Positions 40,401 through 55,400 of a DNA stretch of 64,000 nt are shown here, in pieces. The DNA comes from Tribonema minus (lineage: Eukaryota > Sar > Xanthophyceae > Tribonematales > Tribonemataceae): NCBI GenBank assembly GCA_017506865.1, contig JAFCMP010000101.1:186001-250000 (forward strand), in the 5' to 3' direction. How positions within the stretch are numbered: the stretch's first letter is position 1; each line of letters starts with the position of its first letter. A program made the position numbers and the translations under genes. The notes beneath the pieces were generated by a model. It was not told where the DNA came from, did no database searches, and saw only the letters and a list, made by a program, of their open reading frames with translations.

Positions 40401-43400
40401 TGTTCTCATGACCACATCATCGTGGGGACTGTGGCTGACCTTCCAATGTGGCAACTCAAGGGTCGCCCAGTCTCTATCCTAGATGTGCAGGGTTGTCCAA
40501 CAGCGTATAATGGTATTGTGAGATGGTGTATAGTATGTATGATTCGGTGTAATTTGGCAGTATGCCGTATTGATCGTATCACAAATTCTGCGCATGATGA
40601 TCCTCTGGTGGATGAAACTGAAACTTATGCAGGCAGGTGATTCCAACCACTTGGTGAAGTTAGGTTGTCACCACTGATGGCATCAGTGCATGAATTGTGC
40701 ATTGCTTGTATGAAGGCAAGAAGTAACTCGCCAGTGTCCCGTATAATCTGCACGGTGGATTGGAGATGAGATCCACATTTTTCGCATTGGACCACTGGGC
40801 TAAGGCTCGCGCAGTCTAGCATGACGCTGGCATGTTTAGATGGAGAAGGTTTGTGTGAATCCCTAGGGCTGCATACTTAAAGTACATCTGCAAATTGGGC
40901 TGCCCATCAGCCTGGCATCAGAAGAATGCAGTTATCACGGAGGGAAGATACGAGCATGCATTTCATGATGCGTATAAACATACATACATTCGCTTGCTGC
41001 TGAAGCTGTGCAGATTGTCGCTTGCTCTACTGGTAGTGCTCTTAGCTTCTGGACGGGAGGCAGCTCGAAAAACACAAATTGCTGCAGCGCTCGGTTTACT
41101 GCTCACCGCAGTGCAAACCCTGCCGCACTACCTCCCTGCTGACCCCCAATGCCGTGCAGCAAGTTGAAGCTACTGTGCTCTCCGTGGTGTGGTGTCATGA
41201 TCTGCTAAGCTGCTGTCCATCGATCATTGCCCTCTTGCGTTACGCTGGGGCGCCTGCTGCTGCCGCGCAGTGCCGTAGAAGGTGTCTTGGAGTGTGTTCG
41301 GGACATGTGCATCAATTCTGCCGCACCTATGCCACACATTAAACATATCTCACGTACTCGTTATTGTACGTTATTTCCATTGGTTAGCCCTCTTTATGTT
41401 CTGCCACTCCTGACAACGTTCAAGTTGATACTTGCAGTGCAGCATTGCAATGCTGCCGGTAAATTCCCAGCCATGGCCACTGCCAGCAAACTCACGTGAT
41501 CTCTTGTACATGCCGTGCGTACTATGCTGCGGGTCTCTTGTGTTGTTGCTGCAGCCTGGATCAAAGCATCATCATGCAAGACAGGATCGGCTCCAGCGTG
41601 GCTGTGTCACGTGGAGGCCCCACCAAGTTTACTTCCATTCACATGTTCATATCTCCGGCTTGCCGCCGGACGGGCAGCAAAGGGCGTCGCACCCCAGCCA
41701 GCGAGCCTCAACACTACCAAGTGGGGGACATTGTGCATGTGAAGTTCCCAGCCACGAGCGCCGTCACAATTGCAGCGCTCTACTGTTCTGCAACTCAGAA
41801 ACTCTCCACAAAGGTAGGCAATCAGCACCGCAAAAACCAGGGGACTAGAGTTAGGGTTAGGGTTAGGGTTAGGGTTAGGGTCATGAAGACAAGGGGGTGC
41901 TACGGTGTGTGACGTTTATGGCAGTGGTACATTCAATTAACGAAAACTCGTGTTCTTACCTTCTTTAACCTGCAACCATGAGTTGCGGACAGTCCAGCAG
42001 AGTACTATTTTATTTTCGCTCGAGAGGCAAAAAATCATGTACGATAACATTGAATGAGCACTGCCAGGTAGCGTAGTACTATGCACAGTGTGCAAACCAC
42101 ATCATCAGCAACTGGCTCCCAGTGCACACAGGATGCGCCTACTTTAAACACATCGCCACCCTAACCAGCTGCAGCTACCATTGCTGCGAATACTATCACC
42201 ACCAGTACTGCTCTCCCCTGCTGTTGCAGCACATTCCAGCAGAGTACTGACGTGGCCATGATTTTGTATGCTAATGCAACAAGGCCGCTTTGTGCTGTCT
42301 CCAGCTTCAAGTTGAATGCAATCGCCAGTTAGCAATGGCACTGTACTCACATTCCTGCACTGTGTTTATCAGCCATTAGATTGCCTTTCCTTACGCGACG
42401 GTTAGCTCGACTGCAGTGTTTACTGTCGACGCACATCATAAATCTACTCTACTTTGACGATACATTAGCTTACAACATCAGCTACTCTACTCCTTTGAAG
42501 ATACATTAGCTCACAACATCAGCTGACAAGATCCATTGTGTTGGCTGGAGACACCGGACATCACCATAGGATATAATTTTTGCCAGTCCTGTGCAATGGC
42601 ACAGGCTCACCTGAGGAACTCCACGAGTGGCTAGTTAAAGGTGACAGTCACCAGACACACTATGTAATGGTATACGCTGCATGTCAGCGAAGCCATGCCA
42701 GTTGCCCCATGCTCAATGCCTTGCTCAAAAGTGCTCTAAAGTAATGATCGTATGCTCAGCGTAAGAATTCATCATAATCATGATTGTCAACAATTACACG
42801 TTATGATGTCACACTGTCGTCCCCAGCAATCGTTATGACAGCAGTACACCGCGCCTAACGGAGTTGCCTCAAGGCGGTCTCTGTAGCCCTGTCCCCCCCA
42901 AACAGGTCCACAAGACTCATTTTGCCTAGCAACAGCTGCTGTACGTCAAATTTTGCAGGGCATCCTCCATCTGTACAATGTCACCTGCAAGCACAGCATG
43001 CTGTACCTGCTTGGTGAAGAGAATCCATCATGATTGTTGGTGTTTCTGCAAGCAATTGATTTTGTCGGCTCCCTGACAGGATTGCACGCTGACAACTGGC
43101 ACATCATTGCCAGACTCAACAGAGCTCTCAGATTCAAAATTGCTTGAGACTCATGTTAATGAGGCCATACAAACCCCCTTGCCCATGTACACTTGTGTGC
43201 GCTTCACAGAACCAACTGCTGGCGCCTGCGAGATTGTGCACTTCTCCACCACAGACAGCGGTGCTGCATTTGCCAACAAGCACGTCTGCAGCACGTGCGA
43301 CGTGTATGTCAAGCGTGTGCCGACAGAGGTGTTTGGAGAGAACAACAGGGTCACCATTCCAGCGTCCGCGCTAACACCCTGGTCATCGCAGGGTCAACAG

Positions 43401-46400
43401 AAAGCTGCCAAGAAAAAGCAGGAGGACCTGAAGTTGCTGCCCACAAGGTTTAGCATCAGGCAACCCCCAAATGCTCAAGGTGCAGGTTCTGCAGCTGACT
43501 TCAGGTTGTCGAAGGGGCAGAGCAACAATCCACTGATCCTTGCATTGGACAACATGACGGCATTGGCGGATGTTCGCATTGGCATGCTGACGGGCGATGT
43601 CAGGCACAGCACGTCTATTACTAGTGGAGCAACGCACAGCAGCAGCGGCGGCGCCAGCGGCAGCAGCGGTGACGGCAGTCACGGCGGCAGCGGCCACGGC
43701 AGCGGCCCTAAAGCCAGCAGCATTGCGGTTACCAAATCTTTCATCTGCAAATGGATCGCTTCACTGCAGGCAACCGATGCCCAGGTCGCAAATCTATCAA
43801 AGAACTCGAAGAGCAAGGTGAACCCTCACGTACAGCTGGCGCCGGCGCGCATTAAGCAGGAGCTGAGACAGATGCGCCATGGCGCTTGGCCGGACCAGCC
43901 ATTTGACGTCCAGGAGCTCACAGTGGGTGAAAGCGGCTACGCCACTGTTTCACTACCGGAAGGTGCCATTCGCGAGCAGGGCAGCAGCGCACGCGGCACG
44001 TGGCGGCTGACCTTCACGCCTCTCTTCCCACAAGCTCAGGCTGCACGTCGTGCCGTGACGCGTGACCTGCACTTCGAGTTGCAGAGCGGTGCAGCAACCA
44101 AAATCGACCTGGACATCGTGCCCGCCAATGGCGCAGCTCGCAGCCGCAGCAACTGGGTCCTGGGCACGCCATGCTACATTCGCGCGGTGCTGCGCGACGG
44201 GCACGGCTGGCCAACCTCTGAGCTGCCCGCCGGCGGCGGGCAGCTGCTGTCAGATGTGCACACGCGCATCAACCTGGAAAACGGCGGTGACGCCGACCAC
44301 AACGTGAAAGTCATCAGAGCCAGCAATGGCGGTGCCCCCGGTGTCCCAGAGCTCTGCGAGGAGTCGCTGTCAGACAGCGGCGATGAGGAGCCCATCACGT
44401 TCCTCAAGTGGGACGACCTGCGCATCTGTCCGCGGACGTCAGCACCGGGTGCAGACGTGGATCCGCTGCAGTTTCGTGGCAAGAATCGAAGCACGGCGAG
44501 CGCCCGGCTGGGCCTGGTGCTCAGCGGCCTGCCGCTGGTGCGTCTGCCTGAGTCAGAGCGCGTGCGCGAGATGAAACTTCAAGTGGCGCCGGGGGAGCCT
44601 CGCACGCTGCTCGTGGACCACGCAAACCCCGGACCGCTGCGCCTGAGCGCTGAGGAGCTCACGCAGGCCACCGCCGCCGCTGCCGCCGAGGGTGCTGGCG
44701 CAGCAGCAGCGGCAGCGGAGGACGCACCAGTGGTGCAGAACATGACGGTCATGCAGTTCCGCGTGCGTATGGCAGACGAGTTTGGCAACCTTGCCGCGGT
44801 GGAGCCGGGGACACCGGTGACGTGCCAGTGCACCATGAGTGATGGCATCGCTGCAGAGGTGCTCGCCGCGGCGGTGGGCCAGATCGTCCGGGTGCGCATC
44901 ACAGAGCCACCGGCGGGTACGGCGAGGACGTTCATGACGAGGAGCACTCGCACCTGCGTTCTGTCCGCCCCGGCCTACGCGGATTCGCAGCCGTACTACT
45001 TCCGCACGATGGGCAACAGGACGCCAGAGAGGCTCCAGGTGTGGGACCATCACGGCAGCGCGCCCGCAGGCTCGCGCCGCGCACAGCCACCGCCAGCTGC
45101 TCCACTCGTGCAGGTGCGCAGTCCGCGGACGGCGCCTCGCTGGTAGCTGCTGTCGGCGTCAGCGCCATCAGCAGGGACAGCACGCTGCTGGATGTCCAAG
45201 CTCAGGCGTGCCAGTTCGCCATCGACTTCCGCAGGCCCGGCCAGCCGCCCGTGTTCGACGTGCAGCGCGCGTCCAGCGGAGGCTCCGCCACCGCTGCAGT
45301 GCTCATCCTCGACGTCCCGGCAGACATGCCCTGCGGCCATGGAGAGGTGGACATCCTCTGGTACGACTCTGTGGTCGCTTTCGATGAGGACCGTCGCTCG
45401 CGTGGCCGCCCCAGCAGGGCCAGCCTCACTGCCGCCGTGCGCCTCGACGTGCCGGCGGGGGAAGCCGACCACCTGCACCTGCTGCGCGCAGGCGCTGGCG
45501 CCTGCGCGGCGCTGAGCTTCGCGTGCGGCCGCGCCGCCGCGCTGCACACGCAGCTGCAGCTGGCCGTACACGACGCGCGCTGCAATGCGCTTCCCGAGAC
45601 ACCTGCCATTCTTGCGCGGCTGACCGGCGAGCTGTCTATTGAGGCCACGCCAGCTGCGGCGCGGGCAGGAGGCGTTGGCCCCCTGTTCTTTGGTGCCACA
45701 GGCGGTGGCACTGATGTGCTGCAGATTGAGAACGGCGTCATTCCACGGGGGCAGACCATCAGAGGGAGCGCCGGGATGTATCAGCTTCGGCTCAGAGCCG
45801 CAAGTTGTGGGGGTCAGCAAGGTGAGCACTGCAGCATCCAATTGAGTGCATTGGAGTTAACATTGATGCTGGCAGTTTTGATGTCTGCATTCCGAAGTGT
45901 CTGGGCAATCATCACACACCAGAAAGAGTGATGATTGACTGTGACACAGCCTGGCCCAACAAGGCAATGTGAAGCAGGGAGCTCACTGCAACTTGACCTT
46001 GAACCTACAAGTTCTTGTAGGTAATGCGAATGTAAGCACTTTGGCGCTGATACAACTGCTGTAATGATGCAAATGTTGGTGCTGTCAGCTTTGTACTCCA
46101 GTTCATATCACGACTCTTGCATAGCTACACAAGCAATCCTATGGCCATCTGCATTGACCAGAAATGCTCAAGTGTTGGGTACGTGATGCTTTTGAAAGCT
46201 GCTTTGAATAAACTCACAATAACGCACTTTTTTTCCAGCACGAATGTGTTTGCGTCTTGGCAGCAGCTTTTGGACTATCATGCAGGCAGGGCAGCCTCAG
46301 CTGCACCGTTTCTGGCCACTGACACCGATGTCAACTGTACGTGATGTCAGCGGGGATTGCTGAAGCAAGTGTTGCGTTGCGGCAATGATAACAGCACTCA

Positions 46401-49400
46401 GTTTCTATGCTCCCATCAGGGCGATCAGTGTGCAGCTTTGTAGCCACTTGAACGGTACATGCACCGCCTGCTAAACGGTGCTTGACGCAATCTCTCTATC
46501 CCACCAAGGAACATGACTCTGTTGTGCACAGTGACATAGGTAGCGGCTCAATAAGCCACGACGCTGAACAGACAACACGCATAGTACAAAAGCGCAGACT
46601 GCGTGCAGACTGCGCATTCTGTGTCAGTGAGCATGACTTGGGCGAGACTCTGAGTATCACGCTATAGAAAAACAGCGCCCCAGCAATGCTCCAACTTGAA
46701 GTTGTATATTATGTCCTGGACCGCATGGGCTGCGCGCACGATAAATCGGGCTTGCAATAACTAAATCTACGGAGGAGCCGGCGGTTCGGCGCTGGCCGGC
46801 GAGGGCCGCGGCACTTGCAACAGTGCGATGCGGCGGTAAGCGCTGACGTCGCCATCAGGGGCAATGACTGCGTTCCAGTTGTCGATCACGACACGTGTGA
46901 GCGCGCGCTGTAGCGCGAGGGAGGTGCGGCGGCGCCAGAAGGCAACGCGCTGCGCGAGATTGTAGCTGCCCTGCGAGCTCTGCTCGGCGAGTGCGTGTAG
47001 CAGCGCTTGGGTGTCGCGTGACATAGCGCCGAAGTGGTCAAAGGCTGCGGAAAATAGGGTGTGTGTAGTGGGGTCCAGGGCCCCTGAGACTACGTATGTG
47101 TCTATCTTTTCCTGCGAAGCCGATTCAAGCACGCGCTGCACATCGCGCGCGCCCCCCTGAGCCTGACGGAGGCGGGAGGGGCATGAGCTGTCACGTATGG
47201 TGACGTCTATGCAACAAGCTACTTCAAAGCCGCCGCGCAGTTTAGTGCACCGGCCTGCTGCTACCGCGTCGGCGCTCGGCTGCACTTTAGGGACTGGAAG
47301 GCAGACCTGGTTGCTGCCAAAGACGATGTCCATGAACTTGTTGAACCCGTGGCGCGCCGCGTAGCGGCGGAAGGGGGCAAGGGTGTCCCGGTCGAGACCG
47401 CGGAGGTGGGCCACCTGCTTGAGCAGCTGAAAGAGCGCGTCTGCGAGCAAGTTGTGTCGCGTGACGTTAAGCCCTTGTGTGCAGCGGCGCAGGTGGGCAC
47501 CCGAGTCCACTGGTCTATGGCACTTGGGGCACCGCGCCGCAGCGGGGGCGGGGCGCTCCACGCCCAGGTGGCGCCGCAGCGTCTCGCGGAATTCCGGCGG
47601 GGACATGGTCTCCGCTGGGTCAGTGCTCGGCAATTGCGCCAAGAAACCCATGGCCCCCTTAGAGGCGCCGCTGCGCCACGCCGCGACTGCTTCCAACGCA
47701 TTTGCTGCTTCAAGCCGACGCAGCTGCGTGGCGGCGAGCGCTGCGTCTAGCACCCGTGATAGCGCCGCTTGACGCCGCGGCAGCACGGCGGCCGGCGGGG
47801 CCTGGGCAGAGCCTGGCTCGCGCGCCACCGCTGGCGCAGCAGCGCGGCGCGCGCCGGCGCGAGTCCGCATGCCCGGCCCCGCAGCTCCGCCTGCCCGTTG
47901 CAGCAGATCGCGCAGCGCCCGCCATGCGCCGTCGTCCTGGCGCCAGTCCTGGTACCAGACCGTGGGCAGGAGCAGTGCGAGGGCCGCTGCAGCCTCATCG
48001 CTGCCGCTGCGCAGCTGCTGCAGGCAGGTAGCTATCTGGGTGAAGGTGAAGCCATAGCGGGCATGCTCTAGGACGCGGCTGCGTGCCGCGACTGGAAATG
48101 CCGCCAGTGCCGGCCCCATGCACTCGAGGGAACGTGCAGCAAATGCGGCACATGCACGGGGCGCCGCGCCCAGCACGCCAAAGCCACCACTCCCCAGCCG
48201 CAGATGCACGCGTACCTGCTGATGTGCTGGTAGCGTCACTGGGGCCTCGCCACCCCAGTCGGCGCCGCGTACCCATGCCACTGCCGCCGCCCACAGAGAG
48301 GGCGGCGCCGCCGCCGCCGAAACCGCCGGCGGGCCGCGGCAATCGTCACCCGCCGCCGGCGCGCGCTGGTGGGCCGGCGGCGTAAGACCCGCCGATGGCT
48401 CCTGCGCCAGCGCGGCCACGGCCGCTAGCGTGATGGCGTCGAAGCGCCGTAGCTCCTCGTGCGTGAGGGATGGCGCTGTATTGCGCGAGACATGCCCTGC
48501 GCGGGCGGGGACGGCAAGACGCAGAATGGAGAAGGCAGCCTGCACATCCTCCATCTGCACAAGCTCCGCAACCAGGCGGTCGGTGCCGGGGGCACGAAGG
48601 GTCGCCGCCACTTGCGCGCGCACGAAGCCCTCGGTGCCGACCGGCACCCCCATCAGCGTGATGCCGTCGTCACATACTGGTACGGGGACATTGGCGGCGG
48701 CAAAGACGGCGGCGGCGCGCTCGCGGGCGCCGCCTGAGGCCGGCACCACCGCCGCGCATTTCGTGACGTTGACCTGAATGTTGAGCTCGCTCAGCGCCTG
48801 TTGTATGAAGCAGAACGCGCGGCCAACGTGGTCGAGCACCGGCGCGTCACAGCTGGGCGTCATGATGGTGAGGTCATCGAGGTAGCCCGGAAGCGCCAGT
48901 TGCGGGAACTTGGCGCGGGCAGCCACCATGGTGCCGCGCAGTGCCAGCGCGAACAGCAGCGGCCCCAATGGGTCGCCCTGCTGCACGCCCTGTTGGGAGA
49001 GGATGATGGCGGCGTCGGCGTGCCCATCTAGGCCAAATTGTAGCCAAGGGGCCCGGCCGGGGCCGTAGATGTGCTCGACGTAGCCGTACAGGCCAGGCAG
49101 ATGCTCGGCCACCGCGGTGAGGACTGCCGAGCGCGACAGCGCGTTGAAGGCATTACTGCCGTCAATGGCAAGGAGCACGCCGCCGCACTCATGCGTGAGC
49201 TGCGCCATGAGCGCCACTCTCTCTGCGCCCCCCCGCGCGCCGACCCCAAACTGGCCAATTGGTTCCAGCAGCGCGGAGACGCGGTCCCGGGTGTCCGTGC
49301 AGAAGGTGCGGGCGAACAGGCGGCGGATGGTGTCGCCGCACGCGATGGGGCGCGCCTTCTCGCCCACAGCGCTGAGGCGCGCGGCCGCGTGAAGGCGCCA

Positions 49401-52400
49401 AAAGGGGGCGGGCAGCGCGGCGGGGGTGGAGTACACCGCGGTACCCAGCCACGCCAGCAGCTCAAGGAGCCAGTCAACCGTGCGCCCCGACGTGTGCGCC
49501 GTGTGCCGGACGCACTGCTGGAGGTGGGAGTTGCGCAGCCCAGAGGGACCGGCGGCCGAGCCAGGGTTGGCGGCGAGGATGGCCTCGCGTAGCCCGTCCG
49601 CCGTGAATGAAGCGCAGTTGAGTGGTGCCGGCGCCGCCAGCGCCGCCGCCGCCACCAAGCTGCGCGCCCGCGATGCCGCGGCATCCAGCTTCGCAGACGC
49701 ATCGCCAGCTGGGTGTTTAGCCTGCAGTTTATGCAAGGTAGCAGAGTCGCGGGGGGCAGATGTGTCAGCACCCTCCGCCAGCAGCCGCGCGGCGCGCCCG
49801 ACGCCGCCCGGCTGCCGCGCCGTCGCCGCCGCGCGTTCCCGCACTGCCGCCGCCGCCTCCGTCATAGACCTAGCGCGGCGCGTGCACGCACGGGCGGCGC
49901 CGCGGCGGCAGAAGGCCAGCGCTGTGCGCGTGAGCAGGTCCAGGTCGCCTGCCACGAAGGCCGCAAAACGGTGCGCCCGCGGCAGGGAGCCGTCGGGTAC
50001 AAGCAGCAGGCACGGCAGCAGATGCAGCAGCTTGCACCATGCACCGGCTGTGGCGGACGCCTGTGCCGCTGCCTCAACCCCGTGTGCCTGCGCTACCGCC
50101 GTCTGCGCTTCCCGGAGGCCCGCCAGCGTGGCCGTCAAGGCGGCTGTGAAGTCCGAGCGGTGCTCCAGGCGAATGCGGCGGCCGACCACCAGTTGCTGCT
50201 GCAGAACATAGTCAAAGGAGAGGTCGTCAAGCGCTGCGCGCGCGGGCGAGAGCGGCGCCAGCGTCCAGAGCGGAAGCGCGCTGCGCCATGTTGGCCCTGC
50301 CGCAGCCACAGCGGCAGCTGCGCGGGCGCCGGGGCCGCGCGCGCCGCCGCTGGCTGTAGAGAGGGGGAGGATGGGGGGCAGAGGCGCGACGCGGGGCCCG
50401 TGTGGCCGCTGCGTTGCGGCCGCCCCCCGGGACTTGTACAGGTGGTCGCGCTGGTGCAATTTCGTGCGCACGCACCCTGGCTCGCCGCACGAGGCGCATG
50501 CGCAGAGTAGCAGCTCGGGTTCCACGGCGTAGTAGGTGCCCGCGCCGGCTCGGTGGAGAGTCAAACACTCATCGTCGACCGCCTGCATACGCGCGAGAAA
50601 GTCGGCAGGCACATTCGGATGCTCGCGGCGCTGGTGATCCGCCAGCGTCGTGGCGATGCGGCGCGCCAGCGCCAGCGACGCCGACGTCTGCGCCGTGAGC
50701 GTGTTCGCCTCCCCGTTCCGGCGGAGGCGCGGTTTGGGCACTGGCACCCGAAAGAGGCAGCCAGTGTCATATAAAGGGCAGCGCGGATAGATGGCAGCTG
50801 TTGCAGGCTGAGCGGGCGCCTGCACTGCCTCAGGCTGCGCAGGGTCTATGCCCGCCGCGGCAGCCGCTGCTGCAGCAGCAGCTGCCGCAATGGCCGCCGG
50901 TGCGGCTCCCCCTGAAGTAGAGTCAGACATCATTACGGTGGATGAGGGGAGCGCCGCACCGGCGGCTTACAGGCCCGAGGCGCCGCCGCCTCCCTCCGAT
51001 GCCGGCGGCTGGGCCGTCGAGGTGGAGAGGAAGCGGTCGGCGGCGGACTGACCTTGGGGCAGCCCGCGCGCGGGGCGTGCAGCGGGGGGTTCCGCCGCCG
51101 AGCCCGGCGTGCGCTCAGCAGCCGTGCGCTTGCGGCTGGCGCGGGGTGTGCCACTGTCGGACATAAGCGCGCTGCTGTCACTGGCAGGCATGGGGGGCTG
51201 CCTACTGCGCGAGGGGGAGGCGCTGCAGTCGCTGCCGTGCCGAGCCGCTGGCGACGATGCGCGCCGACACCGCGAGCGCCCGCGTGAGCAAGAGCGCGGC
51301 GGCTGCCGCGGCGCCGCCGCTGCCTCCAGTGCCACCGCGGGGTCCGCTGCCGCGCTTGCGGCCGCTGCCGCTGCCGCGCTGGCAGCGCCTACAGCAGGCG
51401 GCGGCGCGCCCGCCGCCGCCGCGCCTGCCGCCGCCGCGCCCGCCGCCGTTGCCCCGTCCGCCGCCACCGCCGCCGCAGCGCCAGCCGCTGCAGAGCTAGC
51501 CTCAAGGTCTCCCGCCACGGGCGTGGTGGCCACCGCGCCGGCGGCGTCCGCCGCCGGCACCGCCACGCTCGCAGCGCGCGCCGCTTCCGCTGTCAGCTGC
51601 GCCTCGAGTCGAGCGGTCGCCGCAGCGTTGCGCACCTGCTCTCCTTCGCGCAGGCTCCGTTGCTGCGCCGCCAGCCGCTCCGCACGAACTTGCTCTGCCA
51701 GAGACCGGTCGCGATCGGCCTCAGCAGCCCGCTTTCCCGCCTCGGAGGCTGCCAGCAGCTTTGTCAGTGCCTTGACCTGCTGCTGCAGCCCCTTCCGCGC
51801 GGTCCTCCCCTCCAGGATGCCCCCCTGCAGCTGCTGAATGCGCTGCTCCTGGCCCAGCTGCGCAGGGTCCGCGTCGGCCGCCGGCGGCGGCGGCGAGGCG
51901 CCCGGCGACGCGCTCGCCAGCGCGGGCGTCGAGGCGGCGGCAGCGTCCGTCGCGGCGGCGCCGGTCGCCGCCGGCGCTGGGGGGTGCGAGGCGGCGGCGC
52001 CGGTGGGCGCACGCTGCGTCGCGGCGGCTGCCGCCGCGGCGGCTGCAGCCGTGGCTACCGCAGGGGCACCGGCGGCTGTGCCAGTGGCGGCGGCTGGCGT
52101 GGTGCAGGCCGCGGGGAGCGTGGTGTGCGCGCAGCGCGTTGCCCGGCACTGCTGACCCGGGCGCGTGAAGTGCCGTCGCAAGCAGGACGGGCACGCTGTC
52201 AGATTGTCAGGGCCCAGCAGCCGCAGCGCTACTTCCGTGCCGTCCACCGCGCATAGGACCGAGTGCGCGAGTCGCCGCGCAACGCCGCGGACCACTGTTA
52301 GCTCCCAAACACCCGCGGCGCCTGGCGATGCCGCCGACGCCGGCGCCGCGGATGAGGCCGCACCGTTAATGCCTACGCCGCAGGTCTTCAGAGCGCTGGC

Positions 52401-55400
52401 CAGCAGCAGAAAGGCGGCGGAAGTGCCGCCGCCGCCCGCCCGCAAGCGCACCGGCGCGATGGGCATGCCAGGAGCTGCGAGTGCGGGCGCAAGCAGCATT
52501 GCAAGCTGCGCTGCAGACCACGCCGCCGGCGCGCCGCGCACGGTGACCGTGACCGGGGCGCTCATGTCACCAGCGCGGGTGATGCGCAGGCGGAAGCCGC
52601 TGAAGCTGAAGTCAGCGGAGTCGCCGACCGTTCCGAGCGCCGCGTCAACGAGCGCGGCCGGCGCCCGCAAGCATAGCGTGCGGAAGTCATCGCGAGGCGA
52701 CAGAGGCCCCAGCGTCTCTGCACCCTTGAATAGGGACGCAAGTGAGGCAGCGTCTCCAGCGCCGGCCCTCGCCGCGTCGTGCATGTGCGTGAGCGCCGCC
52801 GCTAGCAGCTGCTGGCGCCCCCGCGTGAGTCGGGCGCGGCGCTGTGCAGCCGCCGCAGGGGTGCTGCGCTCGCGCTCGTGAGGCTGACGGGCCGGCGCGA
52901 GCTCTGCTAACAGTGCGCGGACGCTGGCCGGCAAGGCAGCCAAGTGCTCCTGGGTGTAGCAGGTGACTGGATCCACCGTAAACGAGACTAGGTCTGTGCC
53001 GGCTGCCGCCGCCGGCGGCACAAATGGCTGTCCCTCCGCTGTCGGACGGCCCTGCACGCGCGCCGCCATCGCCATGAGGCGGCCCGCAGCGGCTCCACCC
53101 TGGCGCCCCACCGCCGCGACAGCGGGGGGCACGAAGAAGTACTGCTCCTGTTCCGCGGCGTGGAACATCTCGCTCGCCTGTTGGTATAGCTGCCCTGGAG
53201 TGAGGGCGGATGGGGCTGGGGTTGGCGTGTAGCTGCCTCGGGGAGTGAAGTAGGCTCCATCGTGGCCGTGCAGCAGCCGTGCCTCCTCCCGAAGCAGGTT
53301 GCTCTTCGCTGTAAGCGACGGGGGTGTTGTCGCAGTTTTGGCGGCTTTGGCCGCCCACGAGGCAGCAGCAGCAGGAGGGGTGGCCGCGCGACCATTTGGG
53401 CCAGCTGGCGTGTCGCCAGTCGCCGCTGGCAGCACCACCTCCATCGCTTCGGATGGCATGAAACGACTTGAAGTTCATGAACTGCGTGGCTGTCCCTCCA
53501 ATCCAGTTGCGTTTCCAGCTGCAGCTGCCGGCGCCGGCGCCAGCCTTAAGGAGTGCCCGCTTTGCAATCTCGCACCCGCTCTCCCTGTGCAGCCGTGGAC
53601 TCATGCATCCCCTTCGAGCTGACTGCTGGCGCGCCGCACGTCATGACGGTGGTCCCAGACGCGATCACCACGAGCGGCCTCATTCACAATCTCCACGGTC
53701 TGCGCGCGGAGGTGCGCGACGCTGGTGGCAACGCGCTCAGCGACCTAGCGGTGGCACTGAAGGCGGTGCCTGGGCCGCTTGAGGCCGAGCTTCATGGAGA
53801 CACCGGGTGCGTTCACACTGATGCTGTGACGTTGGCACACCTGGTTTGGCGGTTGCCTGTTGGCCGCTGCCAGAGCAGTAATCATCGTGATGTCAGCTTT
53901 CACTGAACCTCTCAGATTTGTTAAAGCCTGATTCACATCAGTTTGGATTTAGTGTGTTGCTTGAAGTATGTACGCAGCACCGACGTTCATGCCCGTCAGA
54001 GACATGGAGTGAAAGCAATGGTTCCACTGCCTTCATGGTGCATTTTTTTCAATTAGCTGCAGTCTATCACTGTAGTATGACCGTACCACATGCAGCTACT
54101 GTAGACAAAATTTGCCATTGGCACCACCAGTCGCACTGATGGGAAGCGGATTTGATGCCCCAATCTCTCATTGGTTAGAGGTACGGCTGTGAGTGGTGCT
54201 GGCTGCTCAGAGTTGGTTGCTTTTATGGACACACCAGACATGTGATGCCGCTACATTGATGATATACTAGATCAATAGCTGTTGCTGACTGGAGGTTGCC
54301 CTCATGATAGAGCAGCCAAACTGTACTACTACATAGCATGCGTGGAAGCGGGCCCATAACTTTATAAGAATCCAGATTATTTCTGGAGCTGGCGTAATCA
54401 AACTTCGCCATATATTTTTTGAAGGCTCTGTTCAGATCAACTGGATCAGAAGTCACGTTTATGGTAATGTGCAGAAAATATGGGACGGGATGATCTGAGC
54501 TGCGGTCAAAGAAGAATACTCAAGAATATGTGAGACACAGTATTGAGAGAAGCTGTTGTGCCTCCATGTTTGCACCGTACAGCCGGCCCCTCCAGAGGCT
54601 CCAGCAGAGCGCAAGGTTGCAGTTTCGTGATGAGAATGAGTGCGTTAATGTGCACTGGCGTGCATTGCTTCCAACGATGCTTGTGTGAAGCGTTCACTCC
54701 TATTTAAGCGTCTTGGCAGCATGAACGCCCTGACAAAGCATAAGTGCTGGTGCATATAACCACATTCAAGTTGGAAGAAGGAGAGCAGACTCTCGGAGCT
54801 TCAGTATGACGACAACACATAATGCATCAGCATCGTGTACATTGATGGCCCATAACTTGCCACGGTATGATCAGAAACTGTCACAGCCATGAGTGCATCA
54901 GTGCTCCTCAACTGCTGACTTGCCGCCCAACATGCGGCAGCATCGTGCCAAACGCACAGCCCCTCATTATTTACCAGGTGATATCTGCCCGCCATACACC
55001 TTGTCTGTGCTCCCGTCAGTGTCTGTGCTGCCGTCAGCCTGCACCCCCAGCGTGGTGCTGAAGGTGTCTACGTGCTGGGAGACTGCTGGGCTGAGTTTCC
55101 GTCTGCGGCGGCAGCGCTCGACACCGAGATGCAGCTGCTGCTGGTGGCCAAACCCGTCAGAGGCAAGGGCTCCGGCACGGGCAAGGAGGCGCTGATAAAG
55201 GTACGCAGCTGATTCAAACCTGCAGGCCAAGATGATGGGAGGGGGGGGGGGGGGTTGTGGCATCATGGCAGCCAGAAGGGGAAGGCTGTCCTGCCAAATT
55301 TTCTACTCAGTGGTAAAGCCAGGGCCATCACAGTTGAACCAATTGCACATTGGTTAATTGCCTGAGCAAACACTGCAGAGGGGCGTCCGCTTTGTCAGAA

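Follow-up and report, generated by a model that had tools for sequence, protein, structure and literature searches.

A predicted hairpin at the stop codon between two in-frame open reading frames of a LINE with an R2-like reverse transcriptase in Tribonema minus

How does a retrotransposon make its polymerase when two open reading frames (ORFs) lie in one frame and a single stop codon parts them? This question is raised by a long interspersed nuclear element (LINE) on the minus strand of a 64,000-nucleotide (nt) stretch of Tribonema minus DNA (GenBank assembly GCA_017506865.1, contig JAFCMP010000101.1, positions 186,001 to 250,000), referred to as the window, whose numbering is used throughout. 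The production of small amounts of polymerase from a second ORF is still poorly understood in LINEs, including human L1. The compact junction, in a family that is young and high in copy number, combines a single stop, a spacer of 33 nt and one stem predicted to be strong, and it offers a clean test case for reinitiation, readthrough and gating. A tentative answer, for which the chances fall somewhat short of even, is that this is an R2-like LINE without an APE endonuclease and with a gag-like ORF1, in which a hairpin abutting the stop and holding the polymerase AUG in its loop serves as a translational gate for ribosomes that have just terminated. Stop and stem would together set the ratio of gag to polymerase.

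The junction and its copies

Both ORFs occupy one common frame, and the junction consists of TAA followed by 33 nt that lead to ATGATG. The initial annotation had described a two-ORF LINE-type element with one stop between its frames; the sequence confirms that description along with the coordinates, the codon counts, the single TAA, the 11 sense codons and the common frame. The coding features are as follows.

50967..53459, minus strand: ORF1, 830 amino acids, Ala-rich (27.9%), ending in TAA
50967..50969, minus strand: ORF1 stop codon TAA, next base G (UAA-GCC)
50934..50966, minus strand: in-frame spacer, 33 nt or 11 sense codons
50928..50933, minus strand: ORF2 start AUGAUG, within the loop of the predicted hairpin
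46767..50933, minus strand: ORF2, the polymerase, 1,388 amino acids, stop codon TAG

ORF1 and ORF2 run uninterrupted through 830 and 1,388 codons, and the spacer is likewise free of in-frame stops. The label "gag-like" for ORF1 comes from its position only, as Pfam gives no convincing match. A frame that runs for about 2,230 codons with a single TAA as its one interruption could be taken to mean that this organism reads UAA as sense and that the element carries one long ORF with no junction at all. This is barely credible: ORF1 and ORF2, 2,218 codons in all, include 97 Gln codons and no other TAA or TAG, and among the reverse transcriptase (RT) domain places listed out of 151 counted, one has an in-frame stop, a TGA, and none has TAA or TAG. 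A change of genetic code was rejected on these codon counts and stops.

The family is abundant and largely uniform. Over 301 bp of the junction, identity is 100% in all 40 copies scored out of 141 candidates, and all 92 scored copies of a larger set (1,718 candidates) show 98-100% protein identity. The family is taken to be young because 58 of 68 loci, some places being counted twice, are 99.3-100% identical to the window over their aligned parts. Older members range between roughly 98% and 87% identity (among them L041, L042, L045/L089, L046, L052, L054, L062-L064, L067, L090-L093, L095, L097, L113 and L114). Conservation has to be judged from these few older subfamilies, since the bulk of the copies hardly differ in sequence. 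Between subfamilies ORF2 is under purifying selection, as judged from sequence: the ratio of nonsynonymous to synonymous substitution rates (dN/dS) is 0.24-0.39 in eight of ten comparisons, the other two being 0.60 in L043 (ten changes) and 0.62 in L090 (partly misaligned). Constraint on ORF1 is weaker (dN/dS 0.21-0.85), and its values for L089-L092 are unreliable because homology stops within ORF1.

The stop itself is fixed in the copies read. A junction pattern with the stop position left free and up to 3 mismatches allowed fits 208 places, versus 53 for a reversed control. Among the 100 of these places that were listed, none has a mismatch and all carry TAA; they match 21 flanking bases exactly and are a biased set. 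Free of that bias are twelve copies found through ORF2 (L089-L093, L095-L097, L099 and L113-L115), every one of which retains the TAA, the 33-nt spacer and the ORF2 ATG, three of them (L096, L099 and L115) being 98-99% identical to the window. L089 and L092 occur in both sets, so that the ten further places with TAA (L090, L091, L093, L095, L096, L097, L099, L113, L114 and L115) bring the distinct places whose junction letters were read to 110, with TAA in 110/110. L094 ends before reaching the junction and does not enter these counts. No spacer insertion or deletion is seen in the 12 loci of one comparison or in the twelve copies recovered via ORF2, and TAA is present in 72/72 locus junctions, a count in which some places are repeated and for which the script required a 15-nt arm. 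The open frame measures exactly 1,399 codons in 64 of the 92 scored copies, as a stop 11 codons ahead of the ORF2 ATG would give. Ten of the other 28 are accounted for: eight have TAA with an altered frame length (seven in the pattern list by position, plus L099) and two are 5'-truncated (L004 and L098).

Other genomic copies had been proposed as the check on this layout, and with stop and frame kept in every one whose junction was read, the window copy did not come by this layout accidentally. An uninterrupted ORF across the junction was also looked for, and the sole candidate, a 2,270-codon frame in L098, was rejected as a 5'-truncated copy adjoining unrelated open sequence. Two ORFs share a frame by chance one time in three; what goes beyond chance is the fixation of the common frame in the family, not the common frame by itself.

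The predicted hairpin and the route to ORF2

When the RNA is folded from the stop onward, a perfect GC-rich stem of 14 bp is predicted, together with an inner stem of 5 bp, and the AUGAUG of ORF2 falls in the loop. This hairpin is new here and was absent from the initial annotation. Its arms are predicted at the following positions.

50953..50966, minus strand: 14-bp stem, 5' arm, from the base directly 3' of the stop codon
50946..50950, minus strand: inner 5-bp stem, 5' arm UCCCC
50907..50911, minus strand: inner 5-bp stem, 3' arm GGGGA, ORF2 codons 8-9
50893..50906, minus strand: 14-bp stem, 3' arm, within ORF2 codons 10-14

A repeat search returns this pair too, with arms of 20 nt that are 90% complementary and 34 nt apart. 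The inverted repeat departs from chance in several respects. Within the 6.8-kb copy it is the sole perfect inverted repeat of at least 12 bp with arms within 100 nt, and 60 dinucleotide shuffles hold on average 0.03 such repeats of at least 14 bp. Of 6,652 start positions, none but the junction gives a stem of at least 14 bp, and the z of its fold (-6.4) lies beneath that of all 268 scanned windows. When the spacer was shuffled and the ORF2 codons were redrawn, 14 bp was reached in 0/1,000 cases and the junction energy in 3/1,000; with the spacer kept and the ORF2 codons redrawn, 14 bp was reached in 1/1,000. A further GC-rich palindrome lies in ORF2 Ala codons beyond the junction hairpin (50853-50888, minus strand). 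Rfam gives no match at gathering score in the window, the junction or the 5' untranslated region (UTR).

The stem is present, with mismatches, in older subfamilies. Folding of 12 distinct junction sequences leaves the 14 bp intact in three and gives 13 bp with one C.A mismatch in seven. L089 retains about 11 bp, and the stem of L042 is weakened, its 78-nt piece cutting the arm. The L042 form recurs in L113 and L114, where one C.A mismatch and one G.U pair are present and the loop is longer by 6 nt; L093 has the perfect form. Five spacer substitutions are seen, all in the last 13 nt and none in the first 20, a clustering with a chance of about 0.01, or (13/33)^5, in a test picked after looking. 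In ten representatives, five of them selected through the junction pattern, the 24 nt counted from the stop rank in the coldest 1.6% of windows; extended to 36 nt, the stretch still ranks in the coldest 8%. Fourfold sites of the 3' arm vary in 1/6 cases versus 108/310 elsewhere, which is not decisive.

On balance, the ORF2 protein is probably made by termination and reinitiation, coupled via the hairpin. On reaching UAA, ribosomes would complete ORF1, and a fraction of the post-termination subunits would restart at AUGAUG, 33 nt downstream. The stem would be opened at its base by the ribosome that terminates there, and other ribosomes would be held back by it; ORF2 would thereby be coupled to ORF1 and its yield kept low. 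The stem may act as an entry barrier and not as a mask over the AUG. The sequence itself shows the layout, its fixation in the copies read and the inverted repeat, which exceeds chance and recurs with mismatches in older subfamilies; such folding of the RNA in cells, ribosome restart and a ratio set by the hairpin are inferred. Three properties of the ORF2 AUG speak for reinitiation: no other AUG comes between it and the stop, its distance from the stop is 33 nt, and it is kept. Restart in other LINEs speaks for it as well.

Programmed readthrough is the route with which this must be compared. Part of the ribosomes would decode UAA, stimulated by the hairpin, and yield a fused ORF1-ORF2 protein of about 2,230 residues. 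The common frame, the lack of any further in-frame stop in ORF1, spacer or ORF2, and the strong predicted structure 3' of the stop all fit such a route; Tobacco necrosis virus-D, moreover, uses a stem-loop directly 3' of its leaky stop, and UAA is possible as a readthrough stop in luteoviruses (PMC5382211). Viral readthrough motifs fall into three types: UAG-CARYYA (type I), UGA-CGG/CUA with a stem 8 nt away (type II), and UAG with G or purines plus a pseudoknot (type III) (PMC5382211). UAA-GCC fits none of them, the base of the stem is located where the terminating ribosome sits, and the ORF2 ATG is retained in all 12 copies found through ORF2. Read as coding sequence, the five spacer substitutions comprise three that change a residue (S to F, T to I and S to L) and two that are silent, too few to decide. 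Precedent for readthrough at UAA-G is weak (PMC5382211). Readthrough is judged distinctly unlikely, and reinitiation is preferred over it because UAA-G lies outside the type I-III motifs, the AUG is retained and restart occurs in other LINEs. The initial annotation had proposed that the stop sets the protein ratio by readthrough or by reinitiation; the second route gains from the kept AUG and the hairpin that encloses it, while the first is weakened by the stop context.

Another explanation is that the common frame is incidental, that the hairpin has some other role in the RNA (binding of the element's own protein, packaging or RNA stability), and that ORF2 is reached by ordinary low-level reinitiation or internal entry. 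The one-in-three prior for a common frame is in its favour, and a 33-nt spacer that stays unchanged at such divergence requires little selection. ORFs rich in Ala codons also readily form GC stems, eleven perfect repeats of at least 10 bp being found. Against this stands the position of the copy's longest repeat, exactly at the stop codon and surrounding the start codon, and the incidental explanation is considered unlikely.

Several results weigh against coupled reinitiation through the hairpin. Most of the 110 places with TAA are not independent, the copies being mostly 99-100% identical, and 100 were chosen by exact flanks. The raw folding energy of the junction is equalled or bettered in 12/268 windows, and the spacer on its own folds unremarkably (z -0.27). 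With the spacer kept and the ORF2 codons redrawn, 112/1,000 junctions fold at least as stably, so the ORF2 codons are not clearly tuned. Most older subfamilies carry the C.A mismatch; compensatory changes are absent and the 5' arm is invariant in the copies read. Deleting the first 12 nt after the stop scarcely alters the predicted accessibility of the AUG, which leaves unmasking of the AUG unsupported and relief of a barrier as the only role with support. Such a stem could instead hinder reinitiation or stimulate readthrough.

Identity, ends and surroundings of the element

The element is a two-ORF non-long-terminal-repeat retrotransposon, or LINE, with an R2-like RT, young and multi-copy. 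It has an RT domain, its copies share a common 3' end and several end early on the 5' side, and long terminal repeats are lacking. The features of ORF2 and the limits of the window copy are listed here.

48744..49181, minus strand: reverse transcriptase domain RVT_1, residues 585-730, with YLDD at residue 684
47481..47531, minus strand: CCHC knuckle CX2CX8HX3C, residues 1135-1151, C-terminal to the RT
47064..47273, minus strand: candidate restriction-like endonuclease residues SAD ... IDV ... EK, found by eye and by a loose motif scan
46704..53465, minus strand: body of the window copy
46694..46703, plus strand: ACTTGAAGTT at the 3' edge of the element, a target duplication or common element sequence
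53466..53475, plus strand: ACTTGAAGTT at the 5' edge of the element

The RVT_1 match in ORF2 (E 1.4e-8) exceeds the Pfam curated cut-off. Compared with PDB sequences, the RT finds R2 proteins as its top matches and only R2 proteins (E 1.3e-4 and 1.6e-4, the third match standing at 0.49); PDB contains few LINE RTs, and the RT of R2 may be the nearest. The final spacing of the knuckle is one residue below the published consensus of LINEs with a restriction-like endonuclease (RLE), CX2-3CX7-8HX4C. An RLE in ORF2 residues 1221-1290 is a plausible candidate from the sequence, for which Pfam gives no match and PDB no relevant match in the ORF2 C-terminus. The AlphaFold2 prediction of that C-terminus, run without an alignment, is unusable (mean predicted local distance difference test score, pLDDT, 40.5). 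An APE endonuclease was not detected: with E values up to 1 admitted, RVT_1 is the sole Pfam family across all of ORF2. Window positions 46400-54000 contain no terminal direct repeat of at least 18 nt, and the 5' and 3' ends of the fetched copies are unlike each other.

In nine of ten fetched 3' regions a common end lies near ...ATATACAAC, mostly followed by TTCAA. On the 5' side the match stops early in L004, L007, L018, L024, L048, L055, L094 and L098, by truncation or rearrangement. The ORF1 start is contained in eight of ten fetched 5' regions; all eight of these other copies have a 5' UTR of about 150 nt, which the window copy lacks. In a comparison that covered the window edges and L069-L077, L080-L085, L087 and L088, the 3' end of the element, AACTTCAA, resembles a stretch, CAACTTCAAGTCGTTTC, within the 5' UTR of full-length copies. 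The window copy starts exactly at that stretch, with ACTTGAAGTT on either side. These flanks may represent a target duplication, microhomology at a truncation, or a form of the element with a short UTR.

In L073, L076 and L080, copies directly adjoin fragments of further family members, and the element may insert into or beside itself as well. Open frames that look similar by eye flank the window insertion (43107-45931 and 53553-53906, plus strand), and the element may sit reversed inside a host gene; Pfam gives no match for the left-hand flanking frames (43107-45931).

With an R2 fragment as query against the same genome, 150 of 201 candidates were scored, many of them places already known and most with one score. 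No second R2-like family stood out among those places that were opened, a part of the 150 scored. Of 20 junction stretches taken from such places, 3 contain the junction, 5 match solely downstream and 12 have no family match there. The genome holds many other RVT_1 places that score better, some within open frames of about 3,100 to 3,500 codons. Two scans of viral contigs returned no relatives; in one of them 134 stretches fitted the pattern and none passed tblastn.

Comparison with known elements

L1 resembles this element in having two ORFs and a short spacer, and to our knowledge it has no hairpin abutting the stop. The L1 spacer in mammals is 63 nt, across which reinitiation has been proposed (PMC5972666), and L1 relies on an unconventional mechanism for its small output of ORF2 protein (PMC5972666, PMC2951350). 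L1 differs in that spacer length and in its APE endonuclease (PMC5678591), a domain that Pfam does not detect here. In SART1 of the silkworm, ORF2 translation is coupled to ORF1 termination and requires structure downstream of the stop (PMC5972666). An RNA structure 3' of the stop is common to both elements, being predicted in this one. SART1, however, has an overlapping UAAUG stop-start, whereas here 33 nt in one frame separate stop and start. The letters UAAUG are present at the ORF2 start of this element, out of the ORF1 frame, and are lost in L091 and L093.

Zorro3, an L1-like element of Candida albicans, has non-overlapping ORFs, as here, and needs its ORF2 ATG for retrotransposition (PMC1965478). 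It differs in an inter-ORF region that is A-rich instead of forming a GC-rich hairpin, and in an ORF2 with an L1-like endonuclease domain. TART-B1 of Drosophila shares the short gap after the Gag stop, 37 nt long, but its polymerase starts in the +1 frame (PMC5009743), not in the same frame. The statement that most LINEs overlap their ORFs or shift frames, made when the locus was first annotated, proves too broad in view of L1, Zorro3 and TART-B1. A full-text literature search, covering mostly papers outside subscription, returned no LINE in which a hairpin abuts the stop and encloses the second start codon.

The R2 group may be the closest in its enzymes, with R2 proteins as the top PDB matches of the RT and a CCHC knuckle, one residue short in its last spacing, between the RT and the C-terminus. 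Two-ORF exceptions are placed in the CRE clade, for which the literature search gave no confirmation. RLE LINEs such as R2 are described with a single ORF (PMC5678591), whereas two are present here and the RLE is a candidate only. Unlike the standard description of that group, the element would show an R2-like RT working beside a separate first ORF.

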